Positions 38,248 to 59,752 of a DNA stretch of 64,000 nt are shown piece by piece. Position 1 is the stretch's first letter. Every line of letters starts with the position of its first letter. The stretch is from positions 27,393,759 to 27,457,758 of the forward strand of contig OZ038462.1 of the NCBI GenBank assembly GCA_964036295.1, in the 5' to 3' direction. Made by a program: the position numbers and the translations under genes. The notes beneath the pieces were generated by a model. It was not told the origin of the DNA. It saw nothing but the letters and a program-made list of their open reading frames with translations, and did no database searches. Origin of the DNA: Plumapathes pennacea (Eukaryota > Cnidaria > Anthozoa > Antipatharia > Myriopathidae).

Positions 38248-39457
38248 CTAAACTTTAGTTTCAAGGGAGAGTTCTGGTGGCAAAGAAGCTACTTCCACGC
38301 TGGCCTCATAACGGCCTCCGACTTTCTCTGGGTAGAACTCACGACATCGATCCGTCGACTTCTGCACTAGGAGCGCTGAGTGTTAGAAAAATGGGCAAGC
38401 TGTGAATTTCACTTTATCTAATGAAAGCGAGTTTCGAATACAAAGGGCAAGACTAGAGGTGACACTAAATAGAGATTAACAACAATTGAATAAGTTGCGC
38501 AGTGCCGAGGCAAGTTTTTCATAACTGTTCTGTAACTCGTTTTCCACGGAAATTATGAAACATTACTTACTCTCCTGAGACAACGTTCCCGGAGTTTCAG
38601 AAACTTGGATGGGAAAAGGTATAGACTCTTCTTTCCGCGGTGAGCCGGTGCCAAATGGAACCAAGACCTCGCTCTCAGGCGATCTTATTTCCATGGTCGG
38701 AGCAGGGATTCTTCTGCGCCCTTTACAAAAGCAGCGGTACAGTACCACGCCCAAGACCAGAACAAGGAGCAAGCTCCCCCCTGAGAAAGCCAGGATAAGT
38801 GCGTTCGATGAAAAGTCAGCCTGTTGCTGTTGCCTCGCCAGACTATCTGGGGCGCTCGGATTTGGCTGCCGTAATACGACGCCAGAACTGTTGGTTCCGG
38901 CTACGGACGCCGCTACCTTGGTCACAGTGGAACCCTTCAAGGGGGAGCTGGGGGTTGCCGTCTTCGCAGTCTTGTCACTTGGGCCTGGCGTGGTGGAATT
39001 CCTGTGGCACTTGTCAGATCGGATCACATTACACACCTGGTCAACTGGCAGCTTTTGGTCTTCGCACTCCCTTTCTTTGATGTCTCGTCCATCTCCGCAA
39101 CAGGAAGAGCATATCTCACACTGGCCTGTATTAGCATCCAGGTAGGAACCAGGTTTGCAGACACCGCATTCACTGTTAGAAGTCAGGGTGCAGTTCTTTA
39201 CTGTCACTCTATTATGTTCGGAGCAAGTGTTGCAGGCCTCACAAATTCCCGTGCCATGCCATGCGGAGAATGTTTCACCACGGACGCAGGCCTGGCACAT
39301 GATCCGCTTCCCTGGAGGAATCGTGGAATAACACTGTACGGACGCTCCCTCTCCCTTGGGGCACGTGGGGCACGAAACACATGATTGCATGTTTATGGTC
39401 GGATCCTTCACCGTGATTTCGTCAACTCCACAAGCTTTCGGCATGTTCGTTTGATTG
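38248..39457 (-). CDS. TNF receptor superfamily member (EDAR-like ectodomain), short tail; distal copy
   Basis: Two coding exons: 39457-38571 and 38375-38248 (stop), spliced in phase 1. The first begins at a phase-2 acceptor, so a 5' exon with start codon and signal peptide is missing from my model; a non-coding 5' exon ends at 44850. The visible 338 residues have cysteine-rich repeats from CGVDEITVKD through CVSCPTCPKGEGASVQCY, CQACVRGETFS, CEACNTCSEHNR and CGVCKPGSY to a third repeat with CSSCCGDGRD. A Ser/Thr/Pro stalk and a transmembrane helix (NALILAFSGGSLLLVLVLG, then basic residues) follow. The spacing recalls EDAR/TROY-type receptors, which bind TNF ligands at the cell surface. The tail ends soon after a segment (LLVQKSTDRCREFY) that aligns with the start of the last exon in the proximal copy, then diverges and stops. 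No death domain is visible. It could signal through a TRAF-type motif or act as a decoy; both are inference. Confidence 0.85.
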
Positions 39458-39654
39458 CTGCGGCATAACAATGAAAAAGAACCATAAAAAACCTGGTACA
39501 TTTTTCCATGTGATGGTCTAATCCAATCCATCAGTATAACATATCAAGTCACATAACGTACAGTAAACTGTCGGTTAAGTACAAGAATACATCCCGACAG
39601 TTGGTTAGCATTCCTAGGAAACTCAGTAAGTATGGACTATAATGCATGAGTATT

Positions 39655-39860
39655 TATTACACGACTTCACATTTTCGAGTGCAAATACGGGCCAAAACGA
39701 GTGCAAATATGGGAGCGTATTGCACTCGTCAGGAACCAGATCAACTGGTTTATTAGCTTGCGTGACCAATTTTCGCAAGCAAAGTTTACGAACGCGTCAT
39801 TTTTTGTTCCATTTTGCGCGCGGCGAGAATGTTTGCCCTGCTTCGTTTGTCGTGTAATAA
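39655..39860. mobile_element. TIR element with TTATTACACG ends, copy 1
   Basis: It starts TTATTACACGACTTC and ends CGTTTGTCGTGTAATAA, with several GAGTGCAAATA.GGG words inside. It has no transposase. It abuts a second element with the same terminal decamer, separated only by CAA or so. It lies in the long first intron or 5' flank of the distal TNF receptor. Confidence 0.65.
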
Positions 39861-39863
39861 ACA

Positions 39864-40003
39864 ATTTATTACACGAAAAAGTCGTGCAATACGGCTGTAT
39901 TTTTACTCGTCAGTTTTATTTTTTCTCGCCTGAAGCAGGCTCGAAAAAATAAAACAGACTCGTAAAAATACTCCGCCGTATTGCACTCCTTCCCGTGTAA
40001 TAA
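39864..40003. mobile_element. TIR element with TTATTACACG ends, copy 2 (long hairpin)
   Basis: It starts TTATTACACGAAAAAG and ends TCCCGTGTAATAA. Inside, AATACGGCTGTATTTTTAC pairs with GTAAAAATACTCCGCCGTATT, and GTTTTATTTTTTCTCG with CGAAAAAATAAAAC, so nearly the whole element folds back. It is non-autonomous. Confidence 0.75.
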
Positions 40004-40899
40004 CCTCTTTATACAGTTACATCTAACGTTTATACTAACATGCAGATGCGCGCAGTCAAGGATTGTAACCTTTTTTCTAACGCGCGTTTACTCCACGGAG
40101 CTATGTAGTTATTCATAGTCAGTGAGGACAACATGACAAGAGCTGATTGATCTATCAATTCTCACCATTAACAGGCATTTTTTTACATCAGCTAATTCTC
40201 ACTAAATCATTCATAAATCAAAAATTGATTTTAAAACTTGAACTAAAAAGGACCTAGATCATTGAAGCTCCTTAACCCCTCCCCCCTCCCCCCTAAAAAA
40301 AAGCCAAAAGAAAAGCCTGCTGTGTGGTTTCAACCCACGTAATTGACCTCAATTGCTGATTGGCTTAAGCTGTTTCCGCACGAGACTGATTCCCGCCAAA
40401 GGAAAAACAATTTTAAAAACATGTAATCCTTCTTTAAAGCCGCACGCCTACACTAAACTGAGGTACCGGATCATTACCCTCAAATTGACTTGCTGAGTCA
40501 CTATTATGTTTTGCGAAACGTCACAAGCTTATCTCACGAAACTTTAGACCTATCATTTTATTTAGTGCTTCAATTTTTATGGTTTTTGAAGTCAACATGC
40601 TCATAGCGCGCCAGGACATTTTTTTTAAATATATGTTGAGAATCTGAATGTCTTGGAAACGTCCCAAGCATTTGGACTATGCCAGTGAGTAAATATCGTT
40701 AAGTCACTCAGAACTAGACAACAACTTGACATTGTCATGATGTGAAAGCTACAATAGCTCTTGGTTCATCCCGTGGAACTCTCGCTTTCTCTGATGCAGC
40801 TTCGTCATTTCATTGTGCGGGCTGTCGAAACACTGTACTATTCTGACTGTCTCAAGTCCTTTCCTACACGGAAAAAGGACTTGAAATTCCGAGTTCCCA

Positions 40900-41140
40900 G
40901 GTTCAAGTCCCGCTCTAACCACTAGCTGAATTTACAACACGGTAGCCCTGAGTTCAAATCCTCGGCCACACTTTGTAAATAGCCAACTGGTTAGCCTCCG
41001 ACCAGTTGGAATTCTTAACGAGTTTGTGTTCAGTTTATGATATTTCGTTTCTGCATTTCAAGTCTCCCCAATTAGTACGGCAAGTGCTAAATACATTGAG
41101 ACTTAAATAAAGTGATTTATTTATTTTTATTTATTTTTAA
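40900..41140 (+). mobile_element. SINE-like retroposon fragment
   Basis: A tRNA-type B-box sequence, GGTTCAAGTCC, lies at about 40909, with a second similar word (GAGTTCAAATCC) at about 40950. The element-like region runs to an AATAAAGTGATTTATTTATT tail at about 41106-41135. Together these suggest a tRNA-derived SINE, or the 3' end of a LINE. An A-box was not located, and there is no clear target-site duplication. Confidence 0.45.
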
Positions 41141-42795
41141 CACAATGATCGAGAATTTATCGCAGCTAGTCCGAACACGCCAAGTTAAAAAAATACCTGT
41201 TTTCGAGCGGAAACTGAGTCAGGGTTAATTCGTGCCGACAGGAAGGAAACGAATATTGAATCGAGCTTGTTGTCCCAAAAGTTGCCGTGGAAAGCAGAAC
41301 TGAAGAAGCAGGAAGCACTTAAAATTGAAAGGATTAACACATTTCTTTTTTCGGGTTGTGCTGAGAAGATTTAAAGTTTATTTTCATTTTCAAATCGAAT
41401 GAAGTCTTAGTTTCAAACAGCTTTCGAGATCATTATTTTGAGTCTAATGAAAAAGCATCCAGTCGAACGCCAAACACATAAGCATCAACTCCGTTCAACT
41501 GAACCGGAAACAGACTCGTATATTTTACCGCCGGCCAAGGAACTGAGTCTGCAAAGTCATCGGCACTCAACAATATACCGGAAAACTATTATCATAATGT
41601 GAAGCCCCAGGGCAAGAGAACTTGGTATTGTCCAACCAAACATATACTGTTGTTTCTGAGCGGCAAGATAAACAGAAATATTAAGCATTTCACAAAAGAA
41701 AAAGTTTCTTTTGTATTCCCCAAGCTGTTCGCAAATGAATACAAACTAAGCGTATTCACAAGGACTGACCCCAAGTGTGAACCCTCTTTGGTTCATAAAA
41801 AGTCCGAATGATTAAAAAGTCAAGCCGTCACTCCAAGATTAACAGTTTCCGATCTAGTGCCGTCTGTCAAACTAAAAGTATATAAATTTGTCTTTCCTTA
41901 AAAGGTCCAAGTACTGTATGACTGTTAGACCAGTTTGCTTGTTTGCTCTTCGGTTGACTATCCTTAAATCACGTCACCCCAATTTAGCAACAGGTTTAGA
42001 TTCTCGTCACGTGATAAACAGGAATATATGCACTGATCACACATATGGCTTCTTCGCTCGGCCCATACCAAATTGAATGCTTTAAAACGTGAGTCTTGAT
42101 TATATCTTTTCCTTTCGAGATTACACGAGTAGCGTCAGTTACGAACGGCCCGGCTGACAACGTGGTAAAAAAGTACAATTAACCAGTGATGGAGTTGATA
42201 GCCTACGAGCAGGCTCTCCGTTGGGTTCCATGGACGCAGGCTATGGAGTTGAGTGTGGTCAGAACACCATGGTTGGTGTAAATATATTTTTTCATTTGTT
42301 TTTCTAGGGCACAGCTAATAACTTAATGTGAGTACCTGACAAAATCTCCTGAGCACAACAAGAATTATCAAACCTATTCTCTCATCCCAAACACTACAAA
42401 ATTTCGACAAACAAAATCAATGTATTGAGACCTACAGTACCTTTTAATTTCCTCGTAATTTCCACAGCTCCTTCCACGTGTGAGTCAAACATGAAAATCA
42501 ACAAAGCACACTGGGGGCCACTTACTAAGACATTATAAAGTCACGTGCAAGAACTGGTGACAAGAACAGTCGTGACGTCCATGGCATTGGCGGCAAAAAT
42601 GTCTTTCGGATGACCTGGTCTGACAAGACCGCTTATAGAAACCTAATCGCCATAAATCAGATCACAGCCGTTACCAAAGCTACGTAACGAAAACGTCGCC
42701 AAAAAGACTAATATTCGCAGTATAAGAGGTTTTCGATTCAGTCTGTCACTGCTTTCTCACAAATTTGAACGTCAGCCGGTGTCGAAAGTTATGCC

Positions 42796-42806
42796 CCACC
42801 CCACCC

Positions 42807-42837
<31 letters not shown>

Positions 42838-42839
42838 AA
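42796..42839 (+). repeat. Poly-C followed by CA repeat
   Basis: A run of about 20 C residues flanked by CCCCACCCC on the left and a short (CA)n run on the right. It is a simple repeat in the duplicated receptor region. Confidence 0.9.
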
Positions 42840-44849
42840 CCCCTTCCCCAGAGCATAGAAATGTTATTGTTTAAATATTATCACGAATATATAGAGTAGT
42901 ACCCGACGTCAGGCCGTAACGAATGACTCGTATCAGCCGAAAAATCGTACAATAAACACAAATTCCAATAAATAAATTTTAACGCCATCAAATGTACAAG
43001 ATTCATATAACGCGACAGCTATATTTGAAACTAAACCTGCATGTTTACTCCCAAAGAATGTAAGTCATTTCATAATAAAACAGCTGCGTACTAATTTGAG
43101 ACAGCAGTTTCCGTTTAAGCAAAAGGGAAAGTCCCTAGGAACTTCCAGGCCTCGGGTCAATTTACAATAAGGTCGGTCCGCATTAAAAAGTTGCCAGTCA
43201 AGCCGAAAATAGTTTTAAAACTTCACGAAAATAAACTGACAGTCGTGCGACGGATGTTTATATTGTCGCAATACATGCCTAACGAACCAAGATTAACCGT
43301 TGTGTTTTATTCAAAATTGCTGTACATAGAAAAGCGCGTGGTCCAAGTCTCTCAAAACACATCAGGTGCATTACTGAAAGTGACATGAGACTTGTGTTTC
43401 TTTTCTGACCAACTTGTGGAGGAAATATAAATCGCGCCGTTACCAAATTCCATACAAATGCACTTAAACTAACTGAATGAGTTGGTTATAACACTATAAC
43501 ACTTCGAACACTGAGACTGAGATGAAGTATAACATTAAAGAAGACAATACTATAAAATATAAAGAATAGAAACAGATAAACCTACCGAACTACCTGAAAC
43601 GCGACCTGCTTCACACACCAATGAAACAAACTGGGTTTGGCTTACACAAACCTGTCAACTTTAAAACACCCGCACATAGAATAAACTTCATTTGCAGCTT
43701 TAAAGTCTGATGAAATAATATAATGGGCTGACGAAACTTCTGAAATGGTTTTGGTTTACACAATCCCGTCAACTAAAAACATCAGCACATTCAGCAAACT
43801 GTTGCTGATGCAATATTTGGGCTCAGTGATGCAACTTCCGTAACAAAAATACTTCTTTGTTTCGAACAAACGTTTCCACTGACAAGACCCTGACAAATGT
43901 TATTCGAATATCAAAAAATGGCTGGATGTAAAAGTTCCTTCGTCAATGTTTTGGCTTGATTTATTAGACAGCGGTTCGTGCCTCGATGGCGACCTCAAAA
44001 ATGAAAGGTCAAAACTGAAAACTGAACTGGCAGTTCTTCTTGAGTTCTTGTAATTTATAAAGAAAGCAAGTAAAGTTTTCCTTGCTTCTTTCCCGCTTAA
44101 TATTTGAAACGACACTCGTCCTCGACAAATAAGTCAAAGAGAAGAATAAAAAATATTTGTCATTAATACAAGACAGTCGCGTAATAAAAGTCGGGTGAAA
44201 ATGAAAAGCCAAGACTCACTTGTACAAGTCCAACGCATGAAGACAGAACTTCTAAACCAAGTTTTACCTGACTTGGTGCTGTATCAACGATACAATAATC
44301 GCAAACATCCGCCGAAACAAAGCTACGTGCTGACCGAATGAACCAAATTCCTGAATATCCGTCAAGAATAGTTTTGTCTCAGTTTAGTACTAACTCATGT
44401 GCGCGCTCGTCGTTATGCAGCAACTTTTAAAGCTTCAGTTACAAGAACCTACCATTAAATACAACTGCACTGACTTGTTCCCGTTTCTATGTTCTTTCAG
44501 CGTTTCCGATGTGAAACAAACTGCCGATCGACTCAGCTATAATGACTGCTCAAGAGCAATAAAGTGTATCCGCTAAACGTCTCGACAACAAGACGAACAG
44601 GTTCCGTAAAAGAATATCCGCATTATTGCGACACGCACTGCTCACAAGGCACATCACTTATTCTAACTTCTATGTGAATTGTATGGGCTCATGAGATAAT
44701 CGATTGCGAATGACCAATGCTGACTCAGTATTTAATAACAACGTGTGTCGCCCGCGCCTTGCGAACAGCACGGTCGCGTTTCCCTCCGCGTAACATCACC
44801 AGAACAAGTCCTCGCCAAGACTCACTACTCTAACTAGGGCAACTCTTAC

Positions 44850-44945
44850 CTTCGTAGAGGTTTTTTCCACTGCGTGCTAGACTGTGTAACGCATCGGATG
44901 AAGTGAATAACTTTTAGTAAACGCCGCCTACACGTGACGAGGCGG
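44850..44945 (-). promoter_or_regulatory. Candidate promoter and non-coding first exon of the distal TNF receptor
   Basis: On the minus strand, CCTCTACGAAG followed by the donor GTAAGAG ends at 44850. The partner block has CCTCTACGAATAAG followed by GTAAGG ending at 55762. Upstream of both lies the conserved GCCGCCTACACGTGACG, then GGCGG.GACCAC (44926-44950 and 55820-55850), which contains an E-box CACGTG. Because the block is conserved in front of both receptors and ends in a donor, I infer a 5' untranslated exon with its promoter. No ATG lies in the retained exon portion. Confidence 0.5.
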
Positions 44946-46127
44946 CGACCACGCAACAGGAGAGACACTGAGGTCGAGTTGGTTTGATTCTGGTCAATGC
45001 CGGTTTAGTATGGTACAAAAGTACTGATTCGCGCTGAAACCACGGCTTTGCTTCTGTCAACACATGCAACGAAAGTGCCGAGTAAGCACATCGGACTTCC
45101 TTTTCACTTATTAGTAAGCCCAACGGACTTCTTTGTCACTTAAATAAGCACATCCGACTTCATGTCATGTCGGCGGCGTTCAACAAAGCGACCAGAATGT
45201 CGTCTGCCTTCTCTTCAAATTGGACTGTGAATAATCTCTCCTTTTCTGGCTAAAGATTGTATGTACGAGTGAAAAATGAAGTTGAAGCCGAGGTTTTTTC
45301 CTGTTTGAGACATAGACAGCCTGCAGTATCAGCGGCGTGTTGTTCAACAACAGGAGATCTTTTCCTTTGGGTTCAATCGTCAAGGGCTATTATCACGATG
45401 GCTCCCAAAAATCTTCTCTGCCTCAAAATCGTCCACAGAACTGATGAGGCAGCGCAGAAGGCTTCCCAATCTAATTCGTTGTCATTTTCAATATCAAAGT
45501 TACTGTTGAAAACAGGTGCACAAACTAAGGCGTTTATTCATTTGGCATCTGAACGTCCAATGATAAGACTACATCAAGAGTTGCACTATGAGATGCGAAC
45601 GTGTGAGCTAGTTAAACACAAACTTATTTCATTTTCCCTAACCTTCACTAACCTTAGCTTTGAGGAACACTACAGCAGAAAACTATACAAAATTTGACCA
45701 CACCACGGTTTCAATGGAAGCAAAGCAAATATACAATGTCCTGCCGATCCTGCACTACAAATATGAAAACACTGATATGAAAATTATAGATACAGTGAAG
45801 CCTCATTTAGTCACAAGGGAACCCTTTTGATTACAGGAACAACATGCAAGCCCCGCTTTAAAGTAGGAGGCATGAAGTAATAAAAGTTGCAACCAGTTGT
45901 TCAATTTACCAAGCCGCTATTGGTTTCATAACTCCTCTGAAGCTTAAAGCAAACTTAAGGCAAACGTCCCTTGCGGCTGTGTAGTTTATACTCACAATCC
46001 CTATCTGGTAAAAACCCCTCTGAATTGCATTATTTACAAGAAACACGACAATAACTGCTATACAAATAATACATGATTTCACAAAAACACCCATCCACGC
46101 CCACTCCTCGTCAGCAAAACGGCTACA

Positions 46128-46160
<33 letters not shown>

Positions 46161-46234
46161 CCAGAGACAGCGACGTATAGGGTGTTGAGAGCCAAAGTCT
46201 GTGTGTTTAAACCACTTTGACACAATCGATGGTA

Positions 46235-46647
46235 TTAAACATCAGTTTCCCGTAAAAGTTTTCCAATTACAGCTTCGAAGAATTCTTTCCCAGACATCAA
46301 CGGGTATTTCTTCATAACTGCATCAACAAAGACCCTGCCGACAACACGTTCTTTGGGGTCAATGCCCACCTCGCCTACTGTGGTCTCAAAGCGGTGAAGT
46401 GCGGTGTCCGCGCCTCCAGCTTTCACAATAACCTGGTTTACTTCCACGTAGAAGTCCCGCGACGAATCATGTGACATCTCCACCAAGGGTTCTAAATACA
46501 GTAAACAATGAACAGAGGATAAGTGGGCAATAAACAATGCTAATTTTAACTTGATATTTAACTTTGTATTACGCCATGCAGGGTTCGTCACTGTACAAAC
46601 TGCGGCCAAATGTACGGTTGAAAGACTATATATATATATATATATAC

Positions 46648-46681
<34 letters not shown>

Positions 46682-47745
46682 GATAATGATAAAGAAAGAG
46701 ACAACAAATTTGAATTTTTGGCCGAGTTGTGAAACATTCAAGAGCTTTACAGGTTTCTTTTAAACGTTGTCCTGAAATAAGCAGCCATTACTTACTGTCC
46801 ACAAAATATCTTCCTGGGCCCTCAGTGTTTTGAGTGGGTAAACCCTCTTCCTCCTGTTTTTGCTCGTCTGTTGCCATGCCAACCAACTTCGCACTTTCAG
46901 GGCCACCTTCCTCGATAGTCGGTATAGAGGATCTCTTGGGTCTCCGGCATGTTGGCCAACGTTTATACTTGAGGCGATACACAATGGCCAGAATAACGAG
47001 CACGATTGCAAATAGGATTGCTAACATTGGTGTGGATAAATCATCTGTACGGCGAAGAGGCAGTTGATCGGTGGACATCGCCACATGCATGATGGCAGAA
47101 CCGTTGCGTGTCCGTAGTTTGGGTGTAGGACCAACAGTCTGCTTAGATGTGAAGACAGAACTGTTGGCTGGCGGTGCTTTCTTGGGTTTAGAAGCCGTCA
47201 TGCCGGATTTTTTTCGCAGGCTCGGACTGGATGCTGTCACGGGTGCGGTAGTTGCTGGACGTGGCGGGGTGGATGTCCTACCGCACGGTTTACTTCGCCC
47301 AAAACGACATACCTGGTCGTCTGGCATGCTTTGATCTTTGCACTCGCTTACCACGGTGTCTTTTCCGTCCCCGCAACATGGGGAGCAAGGCTCGCACTGG
47401 CTTGTAAAACGATCCGGATAGAAACCAGGCTTGCAGCCACCACATTCACTGTCGGAAGTCAGGGTGCAGTCCTTTACTGTTAGGCGATTGTGCTTCGGGC
47501 AACTGTAGCAGTGCTCACAAATTCCTGTGCCCTTTTCTGCGGAGAAGGTCTCGCCAAGGACGCAGGCCTTGCACATGAGGGACGTCTCTGGAGTGATCAC
47601 GGAATAACACTGGACGGATGCTCCGCTTCCCATGGAACACCGGGGACAATTCAGACATTGCAAAATGACGTCTTTGCCCGGTTCTTTCACCGTGATTTGG
47701 TCATTTCCACACCCGTTCGGCATCTTAGTGTGATCACTGTGATTT
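46235..47745 (-). CDS. TNF receptor superfamily member (EDAR-like ectodomain) with 84-residue tail exon; proximal copy
   Basis: Two coding exons: 47745-46796 and 46491-46235 (stop), phase 1, with the same first-exon acceptor phase and the same GTAAGTAATG donor as the distal copy. A start/signal-peptide exon is not identified; a non-coding 5' exon is inferred at 55762. The 402 visible residues contain cysteine-rich repeats (CGNDQITVKE; CLNCPRCSMGSGASVQCY; CKACVLGETFS; CEHCYSCPKHNR; CGGCKPGFYPD; CSPCCGDGKD), a Pro/Ser/Lys-rich stalk, a transmembrane segment (MLAILFAIVLVILAIVYRL) and a basic stop-transfer YKRWPTCRR. The last exon adds 84 residues beginning PLVEMSHDSSRDFY and ending GKEFFEAVIGKLLRETDV. 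Its size and helical look are near those of a death domain, but the Trp/Leu pattern of known death domains is not visible. The TA and AAT microsatellites at 46629-46680 lie in the single intron. Expected at the plasma membrane as a TNF-ligand receptor. Confidence 0.85.
46629..46680 (+). repeat. (TA)n(AAT)n microsatellite in a receptor intron
   Basis: About nine TA units are followed by about twelve AAT units, within the intron of the proximal TNF receptor gene. A separate (CAA)n run is at about 46133-46160, downstream of the gene, and makes a spurious poly-Leu frame on the minus strand. Confidence 0.9.
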
Positions 47746-47825
47746 CTGTGGAAAAAGGCCATGCAGACCAGTTTATTCCAAGGAGAGTATTCTTAGGAAA
47801 CTATCTAACTATACGCTCAAGCTAA

Positions 47826-49455
47826 TTCACAGAATAATCCATTGTTACAATAGCAACCTAATGTAATTTTTTTTGTTGCAAATGCGATTAAGGTTAACTT
47901 CCAGTTCTTGACCCCAGTTATGTAGGGCACCGTGGAAACACGTTCTTTACGTTACTTCCGTTGATCAGCGTTCGTCGCTATCACTATGAAACCTGGGTCT
48001 AACCAGAAGTAACATTTCACCTCTTGTGCAAGCCCCGTGTTTCTTTTTGCGCAACTAATGTTGTATAGCACATGTATTGAATCAACTTGTACTTGACCAT
48101 CAAGTCTTAGCTTTGAGCTTTTTAGATAAGTTTTAGCTAGGATTTACAAGCGTTACACGAACAACAAAAACTGTACTTTTCCACAATTATGTTTAATGAC
48201 CGCTGACTCAAAAATATGGTGATCGCACAGTCGAAAAACGTATTTCCGCGTTCTCATTCATGAAGTGTGAGCACAACATGGCCTCTCGTCATACTTAGTT
48301 GCCTGGACGAGAAGTGAAAATCATTGGGGAATTTGTATTGTGGGGCAAAGTTTATCCATATATCACTGAAATAAAAAATTCGATGATTTATTGCACGATT
48401 CCCAATAACAGACAGGTAGGTAGTGTAATTATCTCAAGAATGAATTGAGATTTTGCTGGTTCTAGAAAACGGAAACCCATCCCCGGACGTGAGCGGGAAA
48501 CGTCTACTTTTGATATGTTACCACTATATTCTCGAATGTCTTGGCACAGTAGTTGAAACAAGGCGTATATGACACAAAATAGAAATCAAAGCACAAAAGC
48601 ACAAAGCCAAAACAAGCAAACCTGCTATGTAAGTTTCCTGTGCTGCAGCCCACGCAAGTGACCTCGCTTGCTGATTGGCTTAATCAAGAGACAAGATTTC
48701 CGCTGAAGGAACACTTTGTAACTTCTGGAATCCTTCTCAAAATCCTCTGTACGACTCTGGAACTCCCTGTTATGTAATTTCACTTTGGGTCTTTTGTATG
48801 TTCATCATGAAATGATCATGAATTTAAAAAATATTCGAATCTCATGACTCATCAAATTTTCGGAGCCTCAAGTAAGCACGAAGAGTCTCAAAAGGCCAGG
48901 CATCCCTTTCAGTATGATCGAGAAGGTGAGCCAAGCCTGGCTAAAACGAGTACGTAATGTCGTAAGCCGGACAGCTAAGAACTAGTTAGATAATAGAATG
49001 TAAGTCATAAGTTAGAGATTGATCAGTCGTGTTCTTTGATTTTACCAGTTCCGACTCGTGGAACTGTGACTCAATCTATTACCCCATATCTCTCTCTGTT
49101 CGGCCATCACTCGTGGTAAATTTGCACGTGAAAAAGATTAAAACTAAACTTCGACTTATTTACCGACCTCTTCAGTGCGCGGGAGCCTACCGAAACGCTG
49201 TTCTGTCTCAAGTCCGTTCCCACGCTGACATACAAACTCAACTGGTCGGAACTAACACGCCAAGTCACAAAAAGAGCTGTTTTCCGAGCGGAAAACGAGT
49301 TATGGTAACAATTATATGCGCTGACAGGAAGGAAATGGACAGTGAATCGCTGCCTGAGCCTCTTGGCCCAAAACGTTGCCGCGTAAAGCAAGATTGAATG
49401 AACAGGAAATGGAAAACTAACAGGAACACAGTCATTTCCGGGATGAGTGGGCATA
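47826..49455. other. First-intron or 5' flank sequence of the proximal receptor
   Basis: No coding exon is recognised. The block at about 48640-48720 (CCCACGCAAGTGACC, then TTGCTGATTGGCTTAAT) recurs at about 40335-40375 and 51905-51945, in line with the duplicated intron structure. The signal-peptide exon of the receptor should lie somewhere between here and 55762 but was not found. Confidence 0.4.
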
Positions 49456-49458
49456 CAT

Positions 49459-52400
49459 AAGCTGGTTACTGATTGGCTTAATTTGTTTCTGAAAGAAATC
49501 AGATTCTAATCTTTCTCAAAAAGTCGTACCTCCCCTCATGTGGTAACCGGCTCACTTACTATCTTTATATTTTGACTTCGCTTTAACTTCAGGTCTTTAG
49601 CAAAAGTCACAAATTCGGTTATTGGTTCGTCACGTAAAACACTACTCTGTCTCAAATCCTTTTCGACACTGGCACAACAAACCCTATTGTTCGGGAATGT
49701 ATCACTAGTCCAAACACGCCAAGCGGCTAAGTTATAAAAAGAGCTGTTTTCGAGTGGAAAACGAGTTACATTAGAGAACTGGTAGAGGAAATGAAGACTG
49801 AATCACTGCCTGAGCTGTTAGTCCCAAAACACTGACGCGGAAAGCAGGATTGAAAGAACAGGAAATGGAAAACCGAAGGGAACACAGTCATTTCCGGGAT
49901 GATTGGGATACATAAGCTGTTTGTTTGCAAACTACAAAAAGATTTTTTTATTAAGTACATTTTCGAGATTTCACTCGACTTGCTGTGTTGTTTAATAAAT
50001 TATGAATAAATATCAAACTCACAAAGCATGGACTCGTCTCAGCTGACCTGGAAACATACATCGCAACTCAACAATAAACATGCACACTGTTATTAATATT
50101 GTACAGCCCCAGGGCGTTATTTTTTTCATGAGCATAATTAGAACTTGGTGTTGTCCAACCAATTCTTCTGTTGTTTCTGACAGAAACAACTATGTATACT
50201 TTGCTTTTGTAAGTGACCTATTTGCAAATAAAACCCATTCAGTTCTGGTAAATGAAATCATATGACGTAGCATGGAGCTCATTTGGCTGTATAGGGAAAC
50301 TCAGACGTCCCCTTGTATGAATCTTGGATGCTTTGACTCATGAAAAGTCCGACGATTTAATATAAAGTCAACAAGAGTCACGCCAGGATCGACATTTTCC
50401 GAAATCGCATGGTGTTGCCTTCCCTGTTTTTCAAATCACTCAAAAAATGCTAAACTGGTCGGCTTTCGTTGATAGTTCCACCTACTGTACGACTGTTGGA
50501 ACAGTATTAGTCGCGCCTTCGCTCTGACGACAAATAGTTAAACCTTTCTTTGAATTATTAAAGATCAAGCCACTAATAATTAGCAACACGTTCAAACTCT
50601 CGTCACGTGATTGTCACAGGAACACAGATCTGAATCAATATACCTCAAACAAAAACTGTAGATGTTTTGAACATTCATAAATTTATCATATTCCTTCCTT
50701 TTAAGATAATGAGAGCATCTTGTGATACAAGGTGCCTCGGGTAACTTCACCAATTTACGGAAAACAGAACCTCCGTAATATCGCGCGCCAGCATGCTTTT
50801 TTGCTTCTACCAAATTCAACTCTGACTTGTACCATTTTAGCTCACTTGAGCCTGAAAGCGTAGCTTCGTTTCGATTTGTTATACTACATCGCAGCTCAGG
50901 TAATAATTCATAATAAATCAACCAGAACAAGTATCAGTGGGAAGAACAACAATTCTTATCGCAGTTACCATGTGTTCTGTTTCGGCAAGTATAATGTACA
51001 TAATTTACAGACCTACCTCGTGCTTGCCACAGTTCGCGTGAGTCCAAAATGGAAATGGATAAAAGGGGCATTGGGCGCCGCTTGATAACGCAATTATGAC
51101 GTCATTTAACAATCACGTGTCTGTGACTCCCAAGGGAAGGCGTGTCAGTGTAGGCGGCAAAAATACATAAACTGATGCTCGGATGACCAGTCGACTCGAC
51201 TTGTGACTCGATAATAAAGCGATGTCGAAAATCTATTCCATTTCAATACTCCCTCCTCTTTTTTCCCCAGCTTCGACCATACTGCACAGGCTTTTTCATG
51301 GTGAAAAAAAGAAAAACACTGGTAGCTGGTGATGAGAACAAGAAACAATTGGGATCTTACTTGCCTTAGCTTTGTCCACTCTTCTTCACAACTGATGCAG
51401 CTCAAAGAAGCTTGAGGAGAGGCACTGGGTCATAGTAGTCGCTCTACGCAATATTCAGTAACAATTATACTGCCTAGATAATACTCTGTGAATCGGCTGC
51501 CGAGAATTATACAAACTCTAGTAATTTTTTTTCTTTTTTTTTTTTTTTTTAACTAATCTTGTTTAGCCAAAACAATTGCAAGCCATTTCTTCGCGGCCAG
51601 ATGGAGATGTGTTTATTTGGAGCAGTTACGAAGCAGATCGAAGGGAAAGTCCCTTGGAGTCTCCATCCAGTTCCGGCTCCGCGGTAAACTACAAAGCGGT
51701 CGGTGCTTCGCGCAAACTGATCAAACAAAGCGTTATGGAAAAAGTTACCAGCTTTCAAAAATGCTGTCATAGTCACGTAACTCCCAAAAACGGCGATGGA
51801 TCCCAGATTCAAAACCTCACAGAAAGAAATCCACAGCCTAGTACTTGGACTTGTCCAAGTAAAATGGTAAAAAAAAGACCTGCTGTGTTAGTTTCCTGTG
51901 CTACAGCCCACGCAAGTGGCCTTGGTTACTGATGGGCTTAATTTGTTTCTGAAAAAAATAAGATTCTAATCCTTCTCAAAAGTCGTACCTCTCCTCACGT
52001 GGTAACCGGCTCACTTACTATCTTTATATTTTGACTCGCTTTCACTTTAGGAATTTTAGCAAAAGTCACAAGTTCATTAACCTCCCTCGCAGCGGTTATT
52101 GGTTCGTCACGCAAAACACTACTCTGTCTCAAATCCTTTAAATTTCCCACACTGGCACAACAAACCCTATTGTTCGGGAATGTATCACTAGTCCAAACAC
52201 GCCGAGCGGCCAAGTTATAAAAAGAGCTTTTTTCGAGTGGAAAACGAATTACAGTAGATGAACTGGTAGAGGAAAAAGTACTGAATCACTGCCTGAGCTG
52301 TTAGTCCTAAAACGTTGCCGCGGAAAGCAGGATTGAAATAATAGAAAATGGAAAACTGAAGAGAACACAGTCATGGAATGAGTGGGCATACATAAGCTGT
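49459..52400 (+). repeat. Internal duplication within unit 2 (49459-49960 and 51930-52400)
   Basis: The two blocks are very similar over hundreds of bases and in the same orientation. Shared words include GTGGTAACCGGCTCACTTAC, GGTTATTGGTTCGTCACG, AAAACACTACTCTGTCTC, CCCTATTGTTCGGGAATGTA and GAACACAGTCAT. They appear less diverged than the gene-level duplication, so this is a later event. A more distant copy is seen at about 49200-49455. Confidence 0.8.
51097..51119 (+). promoter_or_regulatory. CRE plus E-box composite, copy 1
   Basis: The palindrome TGACGTCA at 51097-51104 is followed about 10 bp later by CACGTG at 51114-51119. The same pair with nearly the same spacing is at 53289-53310. 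Both are textbook bZIP and bHLH-type sites. Function is inferred from sequence and from conservation between duplicated copies only. Confidence 0.45.
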
Positions 52401-52789
52401 TTTGTTTGCAAACCGCTAATAAAGGTTCATTTATTGGTTGTCGACGGTTTACGGTTGTCGACATAATTTCACTGGACCGATGCTGCTGTGACAAATAATG
52501 AAAAGGTATCAAAATCACAAGGCATGAACGTGTCTCAACTGTTTATTCATATAACAAAACCCATTCAGGTTTTGGCCAACTAAATTAAGGGGACGTGATG
52601 GCATACTGATCTAAAGTAAGGGATCCGGCAAAGCTAAAAATGTTTAAGACACTGTGACTGTTCGTTTTAGGTATGTTCTTCCCGTTCCGTGTGAATCAGA
52701 TTCCTGTGACGCTAGATTTAACGGTCACGTGACAAACTGAGTCTAAAAGGCTGAATTGCTACTCGTTAGAGTGAAGACGCTAACTAGTT

Positions 52790-52940
52790 CAATAATCAGC
52801 GAAAACCGACCAATTTAGCTTTTTTGAGTGGTTTGACAGGCAGGAAGGGCGCGGTGACACCACTGAAACTCGCGCTATTATCGGTACATTGTCGCTCTTG
52901 GAGTGACTCTTGACTTAATTTATAATCGTTGGACTTTTCA
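52790..52940 (-). repeat. Intron module inverted relative to its paralogues
   Basis: Read on the minus strand, this block gives CATGAAAAGTCCAACGATT, then AAGTCAAGAGTCACTCCAAG, then CACTCAAAAAAGCTAAATTGG. The plus strand at about 50338-50475 gives CATGAAAAGTCCGACGATTT, then the same succession to CACTCAAAAAATGCTAAACTGG. A more decayed plus-strand copy starts at about 41795. One copy has been inverted. Confidence 0.65.
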
Positions 52941-53288
52941 TGAGCTAAACAATATCCATTCAAAGAGCATCTTGTGGCACAAGGTGTCTGGGTAGTTTCA
53001 CAAATTTGCAGAAAATAGAACCGGCCGTAAATCAGCAGCATGCTTTTTGCTTCTAGCAAATTAAACTCGGACTTGTATCACTTCTTGTTACAACCCTAGA
53101 ACACTTGAGACTGAAAGCCGGCTAAATCAGAATCAATAACACTCAATTCTTATCGCGGCAGTTACTGCATGCCTTCAATTAGGCAAATATAATGTACATT
53201 TACAGATCTTACCTTGTGCTTGCCACAGTTCCCTACACGTGCGAGTCAAAATGGGTCAAAGTACATTGGGGCCTGCTTGATAACACAA

Positions 53289-53421
53289 TGACGTCATCAA
53301 CAATCACGTGTCTATGACTCCCGAGAGAAAGTGCATCAGTGTGGGCGGCAAAAATTGCTTGGTCATGGAAATATAAACTGCTGCTCGGATGACCTGATAC
53401 TGACAAGACCGCCTATATAAA
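53289..53421 (+). promoter_or_regulatory. CRE, E-box and TATA box: candidate plus-strand promoter
   Basis: TGACGTCA at 53289-53296, CACGTG at 53305-53310 and TATATAAA at 53414-53421 are in promoter-like order on the plus strand. A diverged relative at about 42612-42660 (GGATGACCTGGTCTGACAAG, then GACCGCTTATAGAAACC) lacks the CRE and has a weaker TATA. No plus-strand coding exon was found downstream, so this may drive a non-coding or antisense transcript, or be a relic. Confidence 0.35.
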
Positions 53422-55761
53422 GAAACCACATCGCCACTGAACTCAGTCGATTTGTGGCAAGGCTAACGAAAGAGACAGCCGATTTAATTTGTTGCCTGCG
53501 CTAATTAACGTACCTTCCCCGGCCTTCAATCTCAAGACTCTTTCGCAGTGAAAAGAAAGAAAAGACGACTTTATAATTATGAGAATAGCTTGAAAATCTA
53601 GCAAACTCGGGATCGCTTCTATGTCCCCAAAGCTCTGATCATTCTTTCTTTGGCTTCATTATGTTGGTAACTTGTTTCCTAATGCATAACTATTTTGATG
53701 CAGTTCGAAGAGAGGCCCTGGTCCGGAGCAATCGATCAGAAAGAAGCCACACTTATTGACACTTGCTGACACCAGAAATGTTATTGTTTAAATTATAATG
53801 TCATGAATAAGTATACCTCAGCCGGGAACTCGCACAACACAACACAAACCCTAGTTAATGACTTCAAACACCATCAAATGTTCAAGTTTTGAATAACGCG
53901 GCAGCTATATTTGAAACTGATTAAACCTACATGAATCTAAAGAATGCAAGTCATTTTCATGACAAAACAGCTGCGTATATTTTAAGACAGCTGTTTCCGT
54001 TCAAGCAAAAGGGAAAGTCCCTCAGAAATTCAGGCCTGCTATATCGGATAGTTTCAAAACTTAACACAAAGAATTTTACAGTCGTGGGGACAGCATTGTT
54101 GTATTGAAAAGTATGTCTGGAAGACTACAATCCCTAATCAATTTATATTTACAACTTCCTTGTCCAAGTAAAGCAGGTGAATCTTGGGTTACGCAATAAT
54201 TAAATTTGCATTTTCTGCACATAGAAATTCGCGAGGTCAAGTCTGTCAAAACACACCAGAAGTGACATGAGACCAGTGCGCATTTTTTTCAGACCAGCTT
54301 GTAGAGCAAGTAATCCCGCAGTTACCAAATCCCACTCTACATCCATATAATACGTCATTAAGGCACTTTAACTGGATGAGTTGGATAATAAACAATACAC
54401 TTTGCACACTCGTGCGGACTGAGATAAAGGCTCATAAAGCAGACAAGATAAAATAAAAGGGATTAAAACAAAAAACTTACTGAGCTGCCTGAAACACGCC
54501 ACTTGCCTAACAAACGCTGACTTCACCAGTGAAACAAAATGGTTTTGGCTCGTGTACACAAACCCGCCAACTTTAAAGCACCCGTACATGCTATGCAGCA
54601 AACTTAATGTGCATCTTTAAAACAGCTGATGCAATAATTAGTTGTGGGCTGACGCAACTTCCGTAATGGTTTTGGGTTCTTTTACACGATCCCACCAGCT
54701 TTTCGAATGAAACACAGCAATGATATAGCGAAACAAACAAAACAAAACAAAACAACGGAAGTCGTACGCGGCCTCTATTATTTCTCAGATGTTTTCTTTT
54801 TTTATCTAAGTGCTTCATTTTGATGAGATACTTTGACAGGCATAGCCAAAAATATTTGCCCAATCCAAGACTCGAAAGACACCAGATAAAAATGAAACGA
54901 CAATTGGTAATTGGGTATTATGTGACACTTGTACAGGTCCAATGTAAATAAGAGGAAAATGAAGCTTTATACCTCAGTCGAATGTACGGTATCAACGATT
55001 ACCGTAACATACAATGAATTTATCAAAGCGAAACTGTTGCGATATGAAGTGATTTCAGAGCGCTTGGAAACTCCAACATTTTCTTCCAGTCGCTACGAAA
55101 AAGAACGTGGAAAAAACTTATAACAATTTAGTCAGGAATACAGTGAGATGATTTAAATCTGATGTGCATATAACTGCGATGCAGCAACTAAAAATGAGCC
55201 GAAATTAACTAACCACGTGCTGACCGAATGAACCGAATTCCTGAATTTCCTCAAGGATAGTTTCATCTTTGTATGAAAAGTCATGCAACTTTTGAAGCTT
55301 CAGCTATATACAAGAACTAGCTACACAGGCTTGCGCCCGATTCTCTGTGTTCAGCGTTTCCCATATTTTACATAAATCTGCTGATTGCTCAAAAGATATG
55401 TATCCCGCGGCAATCACTCATTATGTCAACAGGACGAAGAGGTTCTGAAATAATTCTGCGTTATTTACTGTTCACAAGGTCCGCTTTGTAGCGGAGACAG
55501 CAGCAAGCCCGGCTTATTCATACTAGTCTATGTTAATTGCGATTCTCTAATGACATAATCGGCTGATAATGGTCAAAATCTGTAGACAGGTGCTGACTCA
55601 GTAAAATGGCGTGTGTAGCCGGCCAAACAGCAATCGGACGGCGCGTAACATATCATTACACAGAACGATATCTCACTAAGACTTACTAAAACTACAAATT
55701 CACATTCTATGGCACAACTAATGAGTTTCCATCTAAAGAGGACATCCCTTACCGACCTTAC

Positions 55762-55850
55762 CTTATTCGTAGAGGTAGTATCCGCTGGCGCGCCAGATGA
55801 AGTGAACGGCTAAGCAATTGCCGCCTACACGTGACGTGGCGGTGACCACA
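55762..55850 (-). promoter_or_regulatory. Candidate promoter and non-coding first exon of the proximal TNF receptor
   Basis: The minus-strand exon ends CCTCTACGAATAAG and is followed by the donor GTAAGG. Upstream, the conserved module GCCGCCTACACGTGACG is followed by TGGCGGTGACCAC. Overlapping CACGTG and TGACGTGG cores match E-box and ATF6/XBP1-like consensus sites; the second site is present only in this copy (the distal one reads TGACGAGG). Conservation with 44850-44945 supports the call. Confidence 0.5.
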
Positions 55851-56239
55851 TGACACTGGATAATAAACTGATCAGTAAAACCCTGAGGTCGAGTTGGTTT
55901 GATTTGGGTCCTTCCCACTGTTGTTCGGTCTCATGTAAAGGTTCCTTTAAAAAAAAATGGGGCGAATTAGTACATAAAGACTCGTGATGAATCGTGATGA
56001 ATCGTGATGAAACGATGAACACACGCGACGAAAGTGCCGAGTAAGCACATCGGACTTCCTTGTCACTCACTTCTGTCACGTCGGTATTCAACAAAGCGAC
56101 CGGAATGTTGCCTGTTGTCTCTGGTAAGTAATCCATCCTTTTCTGTCCGAGTGAAAATTGAACGGAGTTGAAGCCAACGGACCTCGCTCGGCCGGCCTCG
56201 CTCTCAAACTTCGGCTTCAAATCATGCCTTCATTTTTTC

Positions 56240-57900
56240 ACTCGCGCGTACTCCCATACATAAGCCATATAATCATTTTCAGCATTTTAGTCTGAAATAG
56301 GGTATTGATTGTGAACCTTTGAGTCTGGAATAGGGTGGGAGATTTTGATATGTGGTCTGAAAAAGTGTCGAAAAGCGCACGTTGCGGTCTGAAATAGGGT
56401 CGAAAAGGCGCAAATTTTGGTCTAGAAAACGGTCGAAAACCAAATATTTTGGTCTGAAAATTGTTGTGAGGAGTACTCCCCCCCGCCGGAAATCTTTCGC
56501 CAGAAAAGGAGGGGCTGCTTACAGTCAACTTTAAAATTAAACTGAGCGTCCTTATTTGGCTGCTCTCAGCCGTCCAATCGTAACAAAGGGTTTAACGAAT
56601 TTTAGTCCTCGACAAAGGAATCATCCAAATCTCCACGTCTGCCAAATGAAACCTGAAGTGGTGAAGTCTAAAAGCATAGCGGCGTTTCCTTTATCTAAGA
56701 ATTTAGACAGCTGGCTACAAGAACATGGACGGAGCGAGTGTACCAGTAAGAGAAGTCCGCATTATTCGACCACTCTGGTATAGGGAGACATGATGATTCG
56801 GAAAATATTGCATGCTCGTTACATTACATATGTTAGTGTTTTGTCCGGTCCGGTCTCTGCAAGAAAATTCCTCTTTGGGAGCATAGGGTGGTCAAAAACA
56901 ATAGAAAATACTCAAACAGTGAACCTCAAAGGCGATCTCACCGTCGCTTACGAGAGGTGTCACTAAAATTATGACTGAGACACCAATCGGTGAAGTGGTC
57001 GCTCAGGGAGGACCACTGTAGCTACAGAGTGCCCTGCATTTTTGGAGGCTCCCCTTGAAAACGAGTGGATACGCGGATACACACTGATTTTCTTTCGTTT
57101 TTTTTTTTTTTTTCTTTTTTTTCCGAGGATTAGATGAAGCGGAATATACACGCATGCCAGTGGGACTAGACCACCCCTCCCCTACGTTTTTTGGAGCCGT
57201 ATTCACTAAAAAAATATGCTAGCATAAGTCGCATGCGTAATCCGCTGATCGGAAAGTGTCAAGCCCATCCTATCTCTTTTCTGTACAGCAATCGTCGCAG
57301 ACTCATGCGGACGTTTAATGACATAATACTGTCAAAAACACTGCAAGCTGTTATGATTTCGCGTTTTGCAAAGAGCAATACAGTTATGCAATGAACTCGA
57401 CTTAGCCTCAACTTTAGGGAGAAATTACATGCTGATCATCTCGTTTAAAAGTAACACATAATCTTCCCAGTTCTCTTATCAGTATTCATGATATAAAATA
57501 CAGGTCTACATATACTTGACCTGAACCCGAATAATCCTAAGATTGGTTTATCTACACATACACTAAAGGAAATTACCCAATTCAACCTGTGACACGTGCG
57601 TTAAGTCGAACGCTGGGGTCCTTCCTAGAATCGTTCGATACTATAATATATTACAAATTTATGTGAATTTAACCCTTTGAATCACTCAATTCACACTGCA
57701 AATTCGCCCAAGCCACCCAGTTTAAGAAAATATATCCATGAGTTATGTATTCAAAGACTGATTGTTCAATTAGCTTCCAGCTGGGCAAGGTATCAAAACG
57801 AAAGTTCTCATTTACTGTATGCTACATCTGTGGTAAAAAATAACTGAAACAGAATATAATTGAAGTTCACCACCCACTGGGAGTTCAAGGCCGTTTACAG
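56240..57900. other. Spacer between the receptor duplication and FADD
   Basis: Roughly 56240-56490 is a degenerate repeat of a GGTCTGAAATAGGGTCGAAAA-like phrase (about six occurrences), closing in GGAGTACTCCCCC. A poly-T run lies at about 57098-57122. No gene is recognised in the rest. FADD transcripts should end near the right edge of this stretch. Confidence 0.5.
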
Positions 57901-57914
57901 AACAGCTTATCACT

Positions 57915-59752
57915 TCAGAGTATGAGAGTTTCTTTGCCTCGAGTCTCAAGAAAAGGTTTCAACACTGCAGCGGCGTCAGGTCGATGAATTAAGACTTGTA
58001 ATGTGTAGTAAAGTTTGTAGACCGTAGCGTCGGGAGTTGTAGCGGACCAGTCTTGAAGCAACAGCTGTGTACTCTGGGTTGGCTCAAGTTTGAAGTTCAT
58101 AGCTTGTGTGTGTGTATAGCCAAGTTTCCCCGCCAGATACACCCAGTTCCTCATTGCCTTTGGGTTGAGATAAAAGCCAAGCTGTTCAAAAATGTCCGCC
58201 CCCAAGTCCTTCACCATCTCCACGCCATGGTTCCCTAAAATCAGAGAAAATTCTTTGAATAATACAGATATAACACTATTTTTAAAAAAAATCTCGAGCA
58301 AAATCTCCAAATGCGTCCTGGGAAGCATCCCCATGGATTCCCCCGCGAAGCTCGCGCCTTCGCCGCTTGCACAATTGGAAACCGGTCAGATTCTCCAATG
58401 GACAACGCCCCTGAGAATCCCCGGATAATCTTCTTCTTGTTTGCATCAACACAACAGCAAAGCAATTCAATAGTATTATATAGACACAAGTGTTTTACTG
58501 AAAAATATACCGTGCGTAAAATTCGTACGAAACTACATCCGGGACTCGAGATTTCCCACTTCTGTTTGTGCATTTTCTCATAAAACACTCGTGTCTATAT
58601 AATAAAAAGAAAATTACACGGGGGCTTGAAGATACAGATTTCTTTTTTTTCTCGTGGTATTTTTCTTATTTTTCTCGTGGTAAAATTCATATCTTTGCGC
58701 CGCCGTGTAATATCCTTTATTTTTTATTTCTGTGACTCAATCTTATTTCAGAGTTAGCAGATCAGATTGAATCAACCAACGACATCATTTCAACAGGTTT
58801 CCCCGTTCGTTGCAGGCAAGTTTTCGTTTGGTAGTGAAAATGAGGCGAGGCAAAAGTTGCGGAGGGGGGGGGGGGGGGGGGGGAAAGGGCGGAGGTGCCC
58901 CGCCCCCTCCCCTCCCCCGCCCCATTCTACTCGCAAACGAAAAATGTTAAGGTCTGCAAAACGGTTTGGAACACTTTTATCACCTAATTGAATGCACTGT
59001 CAGTGTTCTAAACACAATATCGCAGATAATAAATTTGGTCATGTGCCAAAGGTCGGTCTACTCTCGTCAGCTGTCGCCGCGACTGATATACGATCCTTCC
59101 CAGCTGTGTGTACAATATTGGGCCGCAAGAAATGTTTTGTCGTTAAACAGGATATGCCGCTTCACTGATCATCCATAAATCACTTTTCACTAAGCCGTTT
59201 CGCAAAAGCAAGTCATTAAACGGAGCACACAGCCGAATAATAAGAAGACGAGACGTACAATTAAAAGGATCAGGTTTAACAGGCGGTGACGAGAATATTA
59301 GACAAATAAACAATCTCCTGGCCTATGCCAACACAAAATATCGCCAAACCTGGTTTGTCTTCCAAGAATCTGCCTGCTGTTGCTGCTCCTGTCGTGATAT
59401 TAGAGTCAGTCACGACTTCCAGTGATCCTCCGATGTTGGAACTCGGCCAGTTTGTAGATTCGTTCCCGATCTGAAAATCGTCAACCTTCCTTGCCAGATC
59501 AACCCTTCCAATCTGTTCGAGAAGGTCCTTGAGGTAGAGAAGCTGTCCTTTTTGGACGAGGCCTGCGCGATGCAAGAGATTCACCAAACCGAGTGCGTCC
59601 GCTGATTCCAACATTTCCGGCGGAATGTGTTCCTGGCACAAAAACTTCATTCCTTGAACTTGATTGCTTGTCAAATCTTTACAGATGGCCAGGAGAAATT
59701 TTAAGTAATCTGAAATCACCGACTGGCCCATTATATTTGATCTGTTTATCAT
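57915..59752 (-). CDS. FADD: FADD-like adaptor: death effector domain plus death domain
   Basis: Two coding exons, 59752-59350 and 58234-57915, joined in phase 1, give 240 residues (human FADD 208). Start: the ATG at 59752; a second Met seven residues later (MGQSVISDYLKFLL) may be the real start, since the domain begins there. Residues about 8-92 form a death effector domain, with LKFLLAICKDLTSNQ, MKFLCQEHIP, LVNLLHRAGLV and LYLKDLLEQIGRVDLARKV matching helices 1-6. A Ser/Thr/Gly linker follows, then a death domain from about 145 (DIFEQLGFYLNP, NWVYLAGKLGY, LLLQDWSATTPDATVYKLYYTL, VLKPFLETRG). In animals FADD joins death receptors, through the death domain, to caspase-8, through the effector domain, in the cytosol. 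It lies directly upstream of two TNF receptors on the same strand. The intron carries two fold-back elements. The donor is G followed by GTTTGG, weaker than usual, but it is the one that keeps phase. Confidence 0.9.
58474..58604. mobile_element. Fold-back element in the FADD intron, copy A
   Basis: The left arm TATTATATAGACACAAGTG and the right arm CACTCGTGTCTATATAATA are inverted copies, and the match extends inward through the TTTTA and CTGA/TCAT region. The element is 131 bp with no open frame, consistent with a MITE. Confidence 0.75.
58613..58711. mobile_element. Fold-back element in the FADD intron, copy B (ATTACACGG ends)
   Basis: It starts ATTACACGGGGGCTTGAAGA and ends CTTTGCGCCGCCGTGTAAT, with a T-rich centre. 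The terminal ATTACACG core is the same as in the elements at 39655-40003, which suggests one family. It sits 9 bp from the preceding element. Confidence 0.65.
58862..58882 (+). repeat. Poly-G run in the FADD intron
   Basis: An uninterrupted run of about 20 G residues followed by purine-rich and then C-rich sequence. Tracts like this can form quadruplexes and are prone to assembly error. Confidence 0.85.

Follow-up and report, generated by a model that had tools for sequence, protein, structure and literature searches.

Two tandem TNF receptor genes beside a putative DED adaptor with a p75-like death domain in Plumapathes pennacea

The locus described here lies in a 64,000-nucleotide stretch of the antipatharian coral Plumapathes pennacea (GenBank assembly GCA_964036295.1, contig OZ038462.1, positions 27,393,759 to 27,457,758 of the forward strand), referred to below as the window; positions are those of the window unless a contig (C1, C2, etc.) precedes them. 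Three genes are found on its minus strand within a span of 21.5 kb. In transcription order, these are a gene joining a death effector domain (DED) to a death domain (DD), termed here the "adaptor", and two genes of the TNF receptor (TNFR) family, R2 and then R1. An initial annotation had reported two TNFR genes and FADD on one strand with no other recognised gene between them. The two TNFR-family genes and the DED+DD gene are indeed present within these 21.5 kb, delimited by the stop of R1 (38248) and the first ATG of the adaptor (59752). The intervals also agree with that description, as far as the 10 open reading frames (ORFs) tested in them (a part of those present) are concerned: none reached the Pfam cut-off. 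The exons are the following:

59350..59752, minus strand: adaptor exon 1 (MINRSNI(M)GQ..., DED with an RVDL stretch); Pfam DED, limits read from the sequence
57915..58234, minus strand: adaptor exon 2 (p75/NGFR-receptor-type death domain, stop at 57915-57917); Pfam Death, identities and tree
46796..47745, minus strand: R2 main exon (cysteine-rich ectodomain, stalk, hydrophobic (transmembrane) segment, start of the cytoplasmic tail with PTQNT); TNFR_c6, relatives and motif
46235..46491, minus strand: R2 last exon (84-residue tail); Pfam and DD profile searches
38571..39457, minus strand: R1 main exon (cysteine-rich ectodomain, stalk, hydrophobic (transmembrane) segment, start of the cytoplasmic tail with PIQVS); TNFR_c6 and motif
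38248..38375, minus strand: R1 last exon (tail of ~42 residues, its start homologous to the R2 tail); Pfam, profile and shuffle tests

The adaptor is composed of two exons separated by a phase-1 intron (donor CAG/GTTTGG, of moderate quality, and acceptor TTTTAG/GG, the slash marking the predicted splice). The protein spliced by hand at these sites is 240 residues long, counted from the first ATG. It displays the two features by which FADD is recognised, an N-terminal DED (Pfam E-value 1.3e-17) and a C-terminal DD (Death, 1.3e-7). Against the PDB, the DED finds that of caspase-8 (7e-8) and that of FADD (7e-7).

The DD of the adaptor does not look like that of an ordinary FADD and would belong to the p75/NGFR-receptor class. 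Its best matches in the genome, at C9:5006000, C5:7174920, and C9:7307019 (43, 42, and 38% identity; E-values of 2e-15 to 1e-12), are followed by a fourth at C8:8074833 (30% identity). Upstream of each of these four p75-like DDs, on the same strand and at a distance of 1.6-2.5 kb, are TNFR_c6 matches and, as read by eye from the frames, the first three loci possess a hydrophobic membrane segment between the TNFR_c6 region and the DD. With the receptor DD at C9:5006000 as query, NRADD and TNFRSF16 come up in the PDB with E-values of 1e-7 to 1e-5. The adaptor DD returns five PDB matches, all of them TNFRSF16 (p75) or NRADD and none FADD, although weak (E 0.046-1.2). A maximum-likelihood tree was built from 25 DDs, 19 of them from this genome and six taken from the PDB (as partial sequences) or a paper; in it the adaptor falls together with the four p75-like receptors (support 97/94). 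This tree omits the near-identical C11:10167, L005, and most of the 150 Death matches of the genome, and its groups were named after the genome search with the adaptor DD, before the tree was inspected. Forcing the adaptor together with human and mouse FADD and with a second DED+DD gene on contig C9 costs 40.6 log-likelihood units and is rejected by the approximately unbiased (AU) test (p 7e-5), as is a grouping with the C9 gene only (p 2e-4). No relative of the adaptor was found in viral contigs.

This second gene, located at C9:1273270-1271748 on the minus strand, has a DED on one exon (Pfam 1.4e-21) and a DD on a later one (9.5e-12). In the PDB, the DD has THOC1 as top match (1.7e-6), with FADD after it (5.6e-4); in the DD tree, the shortest paths lead from it to human and mouse FADD, within an unresolved fork. 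Its DED finds caspase-8 and PEA-15 ahead of FADD. The C9 gene, predicted from its exons, is therefore a better FADD candidate than the adaptor, though a candidate only.

The two receptors share the architecture of the TNFR family. R1 carries TNFR_c6 above the Pfam cut-off (E 8e-8), while the match in R2 (E 7.2e-5, 23.6 bits) falls under the cut-off of 29.4. R2 nevertheless appears as a clear homologue of R1, with 60% identity across 152 ectodomain residues and 139 of the 289 aligned residues of the main exon identical, so that cysteine-rich TNFR repeats may be assigned to both. A hydrophobic membrane segment is visible by eye in each, and the main exons of R1 and R2 agree in both their start phase and their end phase. 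Scans for a signal-peptide first exon (ATG, hydrophobic core, and phase-2 donor) yielded no convincing pair, hence both gene models are incomplete at their 5' end. PDB matches of R2 are weak and mixed (TNFRSF9, CD27, EDAR, DR5, and phage baseplate proteins; E 0.016-0.8).

Neither R1 nor R2 has a Pfam Death match. The R2 last exon was also compared with two DD profiles, one made from 6 EDAR-like DDs and the other from 10 receptor DDs. Among 204 rows (200 shuffles of the exon, the exon itself, and three other test rows), it ranked 115 and 157, whereas the adaptor DD and the C9 DD ranked first and second. With scores at the level of shuffles and no signal in either HMMER or hhalign, a hidden DD in the R2 tail was rejected as a candidate. 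Across the genome this exon matches only itself at E <= 1. The R1 tail is homologous to the start of the R2 tail, with a protein score reached by none of 1000 shuffles, whereas for the DNA alignment of the two tails alone the best of 300 shuffles scores higher. Of the 53 positions aligned in the tail portion of the main exons, R1 and R2 agree at 18. There, both receptors display a TRAF-like PxQx[S/T] stretch at an aligned position, PIQVSETPG in R1 and PTQNTEGPG in R2. PMC7215387 gives Px(Q/E)xT as a TRAF1/2/3/5 site; Px(Q/E)E and Px(Q/E)xxD are further forms of TRAF site. The R2 stretch PTQNT fits Px(Q/E)xT, and R1 has S in place of T in PIQVS. TRAF MATH domains are greatly expanded in the genome, with 66 matches, many of which fall within a single 1.5 Mb region of C11. 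As no DD was detected and a TRAF-like stretch stands at an aligned position in both receptors, TRAF signalling or a decoy function would be likelier for R1 and R2 than death signalling. Between these two, TRAF signalling would be the likeliest function on present grounds and a decoy role its main rival.

R1 and R2 appear to be ordinary members of a large, expanded family of EDAR-like TNFRs. A genome search with the R2 ectodomain returned 28 matching stretches, mainly at C1:33.4-33.7 Mb and at C11:10.1-10.6 and 14.2 Mb. Combined with 29 PF00020 matches, they form 34 stretches at least 2.5 kb apart, distributed in 17 clusters, some of these ~34 stretches being possibly exons of one gene. The 28 matches minus four second matches inside a locus leave 24 receptor-like loci, R1 and R2 included, at least six of which are followed, on their own strand and within 9 kb, by a recognised DD exon; the count is a lower bound, since 150 of the 257 candidates of the genome-wide Death search were scored. 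These six relatives, near C1:33.634, C1:33.663, C1:32.355, C11:10.154, C11:10.168, and C11:10.575 Mb, have their DD exons 1.6-6.8 kb downstream. In the DD tree, the DD-bearing relatives are placed with human EDAR (92/88, below the starred support level), and the designation "EDAR-like" is plausible for R1 and R2 by family only. Elsewhere on C1, a frame resembling an Ig domain by eye (L078, C1:37618544-37618828) has an R2-like receptor (C1:37614221) as a neighbour a few kb away.

Within the window, R1 and R2 are best described as local tandem duplicates of a receptor gene together with its 5' region. Comparison of the window with itself by BLAST reveals homologous blocks, mostly in the same order, extending from the ectodomain exons through 41-45 kb on the R1 side and 49-56 kb on the R2 side. 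Upstream of the two genes, these blocks are (no strand assigned):

42933..43767: R1 upstream block, homologous to 53818-54693 (self-BLAST and genome search)
53818..54693: R2 upstream block, partner of 42933-43767
44325..45108: further R1 upstream blocks 44325-44374 and 45059-45108, homologous to 55215-55263 and 56018-56067
55215..56067: further R2 upstream blocks, partners of 44325-45108

The one block tested against the genome, an 835-base stretch of the R1 upstream region, matches at these two places only. The R2 flank contains an internal repeat between 49259 and 53394 (49463-50045 against 51923-52541, 82% identical), and because the R2 side repeats part of itself, the flanks do not match one to one throughout. 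No BLAST match was obtained between 57.8-64 kb and 37-57.8 kb, which places the adaptor outside the duplicated unit. The ectodomains differ by a synonymous divergence (dS) of 0.57 and a nonsynonymous divergence (dN) of 0.29, with synonymous sites saturated beyond the ectodomain, and the pair would therefore not be a very young duplicate. A recent receptor expansion, one of the origins first considered for this locus, holds for the local tandem duplication within a family of ~34 stretches in 17 clusters; "very recent" does not fit a dS of ~0.57.

The proximity of receptors and adaptor was compared with random placement of the TNFR clusters, using a model that is uniform along contigs, ignores gene density, and relies on guessed lengths for C6 and C12. 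Of 21 DED clusters, a single one has any of the 17 TNFR clusters at 25 kb or less, and one of these 17 lies within 12.5 kb of a DED gene, with 0.06 expected. Over 2000 trials, at least one such neighbour arose at up to 12.5 kb in 5.7% and at up to 25 kb in 9.6%; when any DED, TRAF, or caspase gene is admitted, the figure is 16% at 12.5 kb. Within 25 kb of any of these genes, 2 of the 17 TNFR clusters are found against 0.26 expected (P 0.025). For TRAF genes within 120 kb, the count is 3 of 17 against 0.35 (P 0.003), two of the three being beside one TRAF array on C11 and thus not independent. All these P values are uncorrected, and the case was picked as striking. With P ~0.06-0.10 for DED genes at 12.5-25 kb, the linkage is weak evidence, and the genes are quite possibly neighbours by chance. 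TNFR and TRAF MATH genes are also found in proximity at C11:14.16-14.26 Mb and C2:33.83-33.98 Mb, the closest pair being 23 kb apart on C11. A tandem cluster with 10 DED matches lies at C1:27050734-27108069 (L013, L015, and L016), ~345 kb from the adaptor. Considered as a caspase-8 cluster, it was rejected, as some of the genes holding the 10 matches are of NB-ARC type and no caspase match is found there. By eye, the three loci read show a DED followed by NB-ARC-like frames, and one of them is Pfam-confirmed (NB-ARC E 8e-35).

Taken together, the locus is best explained by duplicated receptors devoid of a recognisable DD, most likely of TRAF-binding or decoy type, neighbouring, quite possibly by chance, a DED adaptor with a DD of the p75 class. 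We give this combined reading a probability of about 0.6; the domain content, the duplication, and the DD kinship on which it is built come directly from the present analysis. In this reading, a tandem segmental duplication of a receptor gene and its 5' region would have produced R1 and R2, which would most likely signal via TRAF proteins at the PxQx[S/T] site or serve as decoys. The adaptor would work like FADD, its DD recruiting it to an activated receptor and its DED nucleating DED-containing effectors. Given the p75/NGFR-receptor class of this DD, the likely partners of the adaptor would be the four p75-like receptors located elsewhere in the genome, through like-with-like DD contact, and not R1 or R2. 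As for its origin, the adaptor is probably the product of a fusion, across a phase-1 intron, between a DED exon and the terminal exon of a p75-type receptor gene. In all five DD exons of the adaptor and p75 group, a phase-1 acceptor (the most plausible AG, chosen by eye) is found just before the DD, at 20 bases in the adaptor and 8-14 bases in the four receptors. These shared acceptors imply that a DED exon joined to a p75-type DD exon would preserve the frame. The more specific proposal, in which the adaptor is a second dedicated DED adaptor born of such a junction and would connect p75-type receptors directly to DED effectors, parallel to FADD, is put forward tentatively and is doubtful as it stands. 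Among the literature titles and abstract openings surveyed, no report was found of TNFR-FADD linkage or of a DED adaptor with a p75-type DD, which does not prove their absence. The available parts of PMC8195603, PMC13367198, and PMC3697994 mention neither this linkage nor an adaptor with a p75-type DD.

Several observations weigh against this reading. On the adaptor side, the PDB support for p75 kinship of the DD itself is weak, the human and mouse rows of the DD tree are partial, and a clade of the adaptor-group DDs with human NGFR and NRADD is not recovered, nor is it rejected (p 0.29). A tree of DEDs gives no placement of the DED of the adaptor or of that of the C9 gene. A phase-1 acceptor precedes the DD of the C9 gene as well, and phase is therefore no proof of exon capture. 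On the receptor side, the R1 stretch, ending in S, is not an exact TRAF consensus. The pattern PxQx[S/T] was picked after inspection and occurs in 5.6% (R1) and 2.8% (R2) of shuffled tails. Finally, the evidence on the R2 tail being at the sequence level, it may still harbor a very divergent DD fold.

That last point can be taken further: the R2 last exon could be a DD diverged past recognition, which would leave R2 a death receptor. The six relatives on C1 and C11 that carry a DD downstream suggest that their ancestor may have had one, but the R2 exon scores no better than its shuffles, has no Pfam match, and belongs to a family in which only 6 of 24 loci (a lower bound) have a recognised DD exon. 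This makes a diverged DD improbable, and the term "death receptor", first applied to R1 and R2, is not confirmed by Pfam for either or, for R2, by the profiles. That both would be decoys, binding ligand without signalling, is also unlikely, though far from negligible. Decoys form a recognised TNFR subgroup according to PMC7905041, and the lack of a detected DD and the short, fast-diverging tails (18 of 53 positions identical, dS saturated outside the ectodomain) would suit them. On the other side stand the TRAF-like stretch kept at an aligned position in both copies and the hydrophobic membrane segment kept, by eye, in both.

The two remaining explanations concern the adaptor and its position. 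It could be the FADD orthologue, its DD having converged on or drifted towards receptor DDs while serving the linked receptors. The DED-then-DD order, the two exons with an intron between the domains, and the DED matches to caspase-8 and FADD are all compatible with this, and the C9 gene is itself an imperfect FADD, with THOC1 as the best PDB match of its DD and caspase-8 and PEA-15 as those of its DED. Orthology is nonetheless improbable: the clades with the FADD DDs and with the C9 gene are rejected, FADD is found in the PDB by the C9 DD and not by that of the adaptor, and R1 and R2 have no detected DD to bind. The name FADD, taken as a statement of orthology, is not confirmed for an adaptor whose DD is closest to those of p75/NGFR-like receptors. 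A co-regulated gene cluster maintained by selection could account for the common strand, the 21.5 kb span, and the excess of TNFR clusters near DED genes (P 0.06) or near any DED, TRAF, or caspase gene (P 0.025). It is given very little credit, as this striking case was sought out, the uniform model is blind to gene density, no receptor DD matching the adaptor was found, and the adaptor is outside the receptor duplication. The "compact death-receptor neighbourhood" initially proposed is not supported as a functional unit of three genes, with no DD found in the receptors and an adaptor DD that belongs with another receptor class.

For annotation purposes, R1 and R2 should not, on present evidence, be counted as death receptors. 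The part of the locus worth following is the DED adaptor with a receptor-type DD, possibly acquired by exon capture, which may couple p75-type receptors to DED effectors. If some anthozoans carry two DED+DD adaptors with DDs of different classes, p75-type receptors would gain a direct and testable route to these effectors, and "coral FADD" in expression and binding studies could refer to either gene.

Besides the three genes, the window contains an array of repeated DNA units at 8547-10934 (74-84% mutual identity), an ABC transporter gene on the plus strand at 19088-24411, with two ABC_tran domains and ABCC-like by eye, and two similar ORFs on the minus strand at 30083-32806 (30116-30256 matches 32468-32611), which have no Pfam match at E <= 0.01.

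Compared with known systems, the adaptor resembles FADD in its N-terminal DED and C-terminal DD, and would be expected to link receptor DDs to DED effectors. Vertebrate FADD has an intron between DED and DD, as does the adaptor. With 240 residues from its first ATG, the adaptor compares with FADD chains of up to 216 residues in the PDB. It differs from FADD by a DD that goes with those of p75/NGFR-like receptors, and by the presence of a better FADD candidate on C9. The DD class of its exon 2 would be that of p75NTR/NGFR (TNFRSF16) and NRADD. In these proteins, however, the DD sits on a membrane protein, whereas in the adaptor it is joined to a DED, in a two-exon model without receptor parts.

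Among TNF receptors, CD40, TNFR2, and CD27 bind TRAF proteins and have no DD. R1 and R2 share with such receptors a cysteine-rich ectodomain, a hydrophobic membrane segment, and a short tail with PxQx[S/T]. In contrast, their TRAF site is putative, with the R1 stretch ending in S, and their closest relatives in the genome are EDAR-like, some with DD exons. In the coral Acropora digitifera, DD-bearing TNFRs, from a set selected for having a DD, were grouped with EDAR, according to PMC4979521. Both corals would possess an expanded EDAR-like family, R1 and R2 being distinguished from the Acropora digitifera receptors by the lack of a detected DD.

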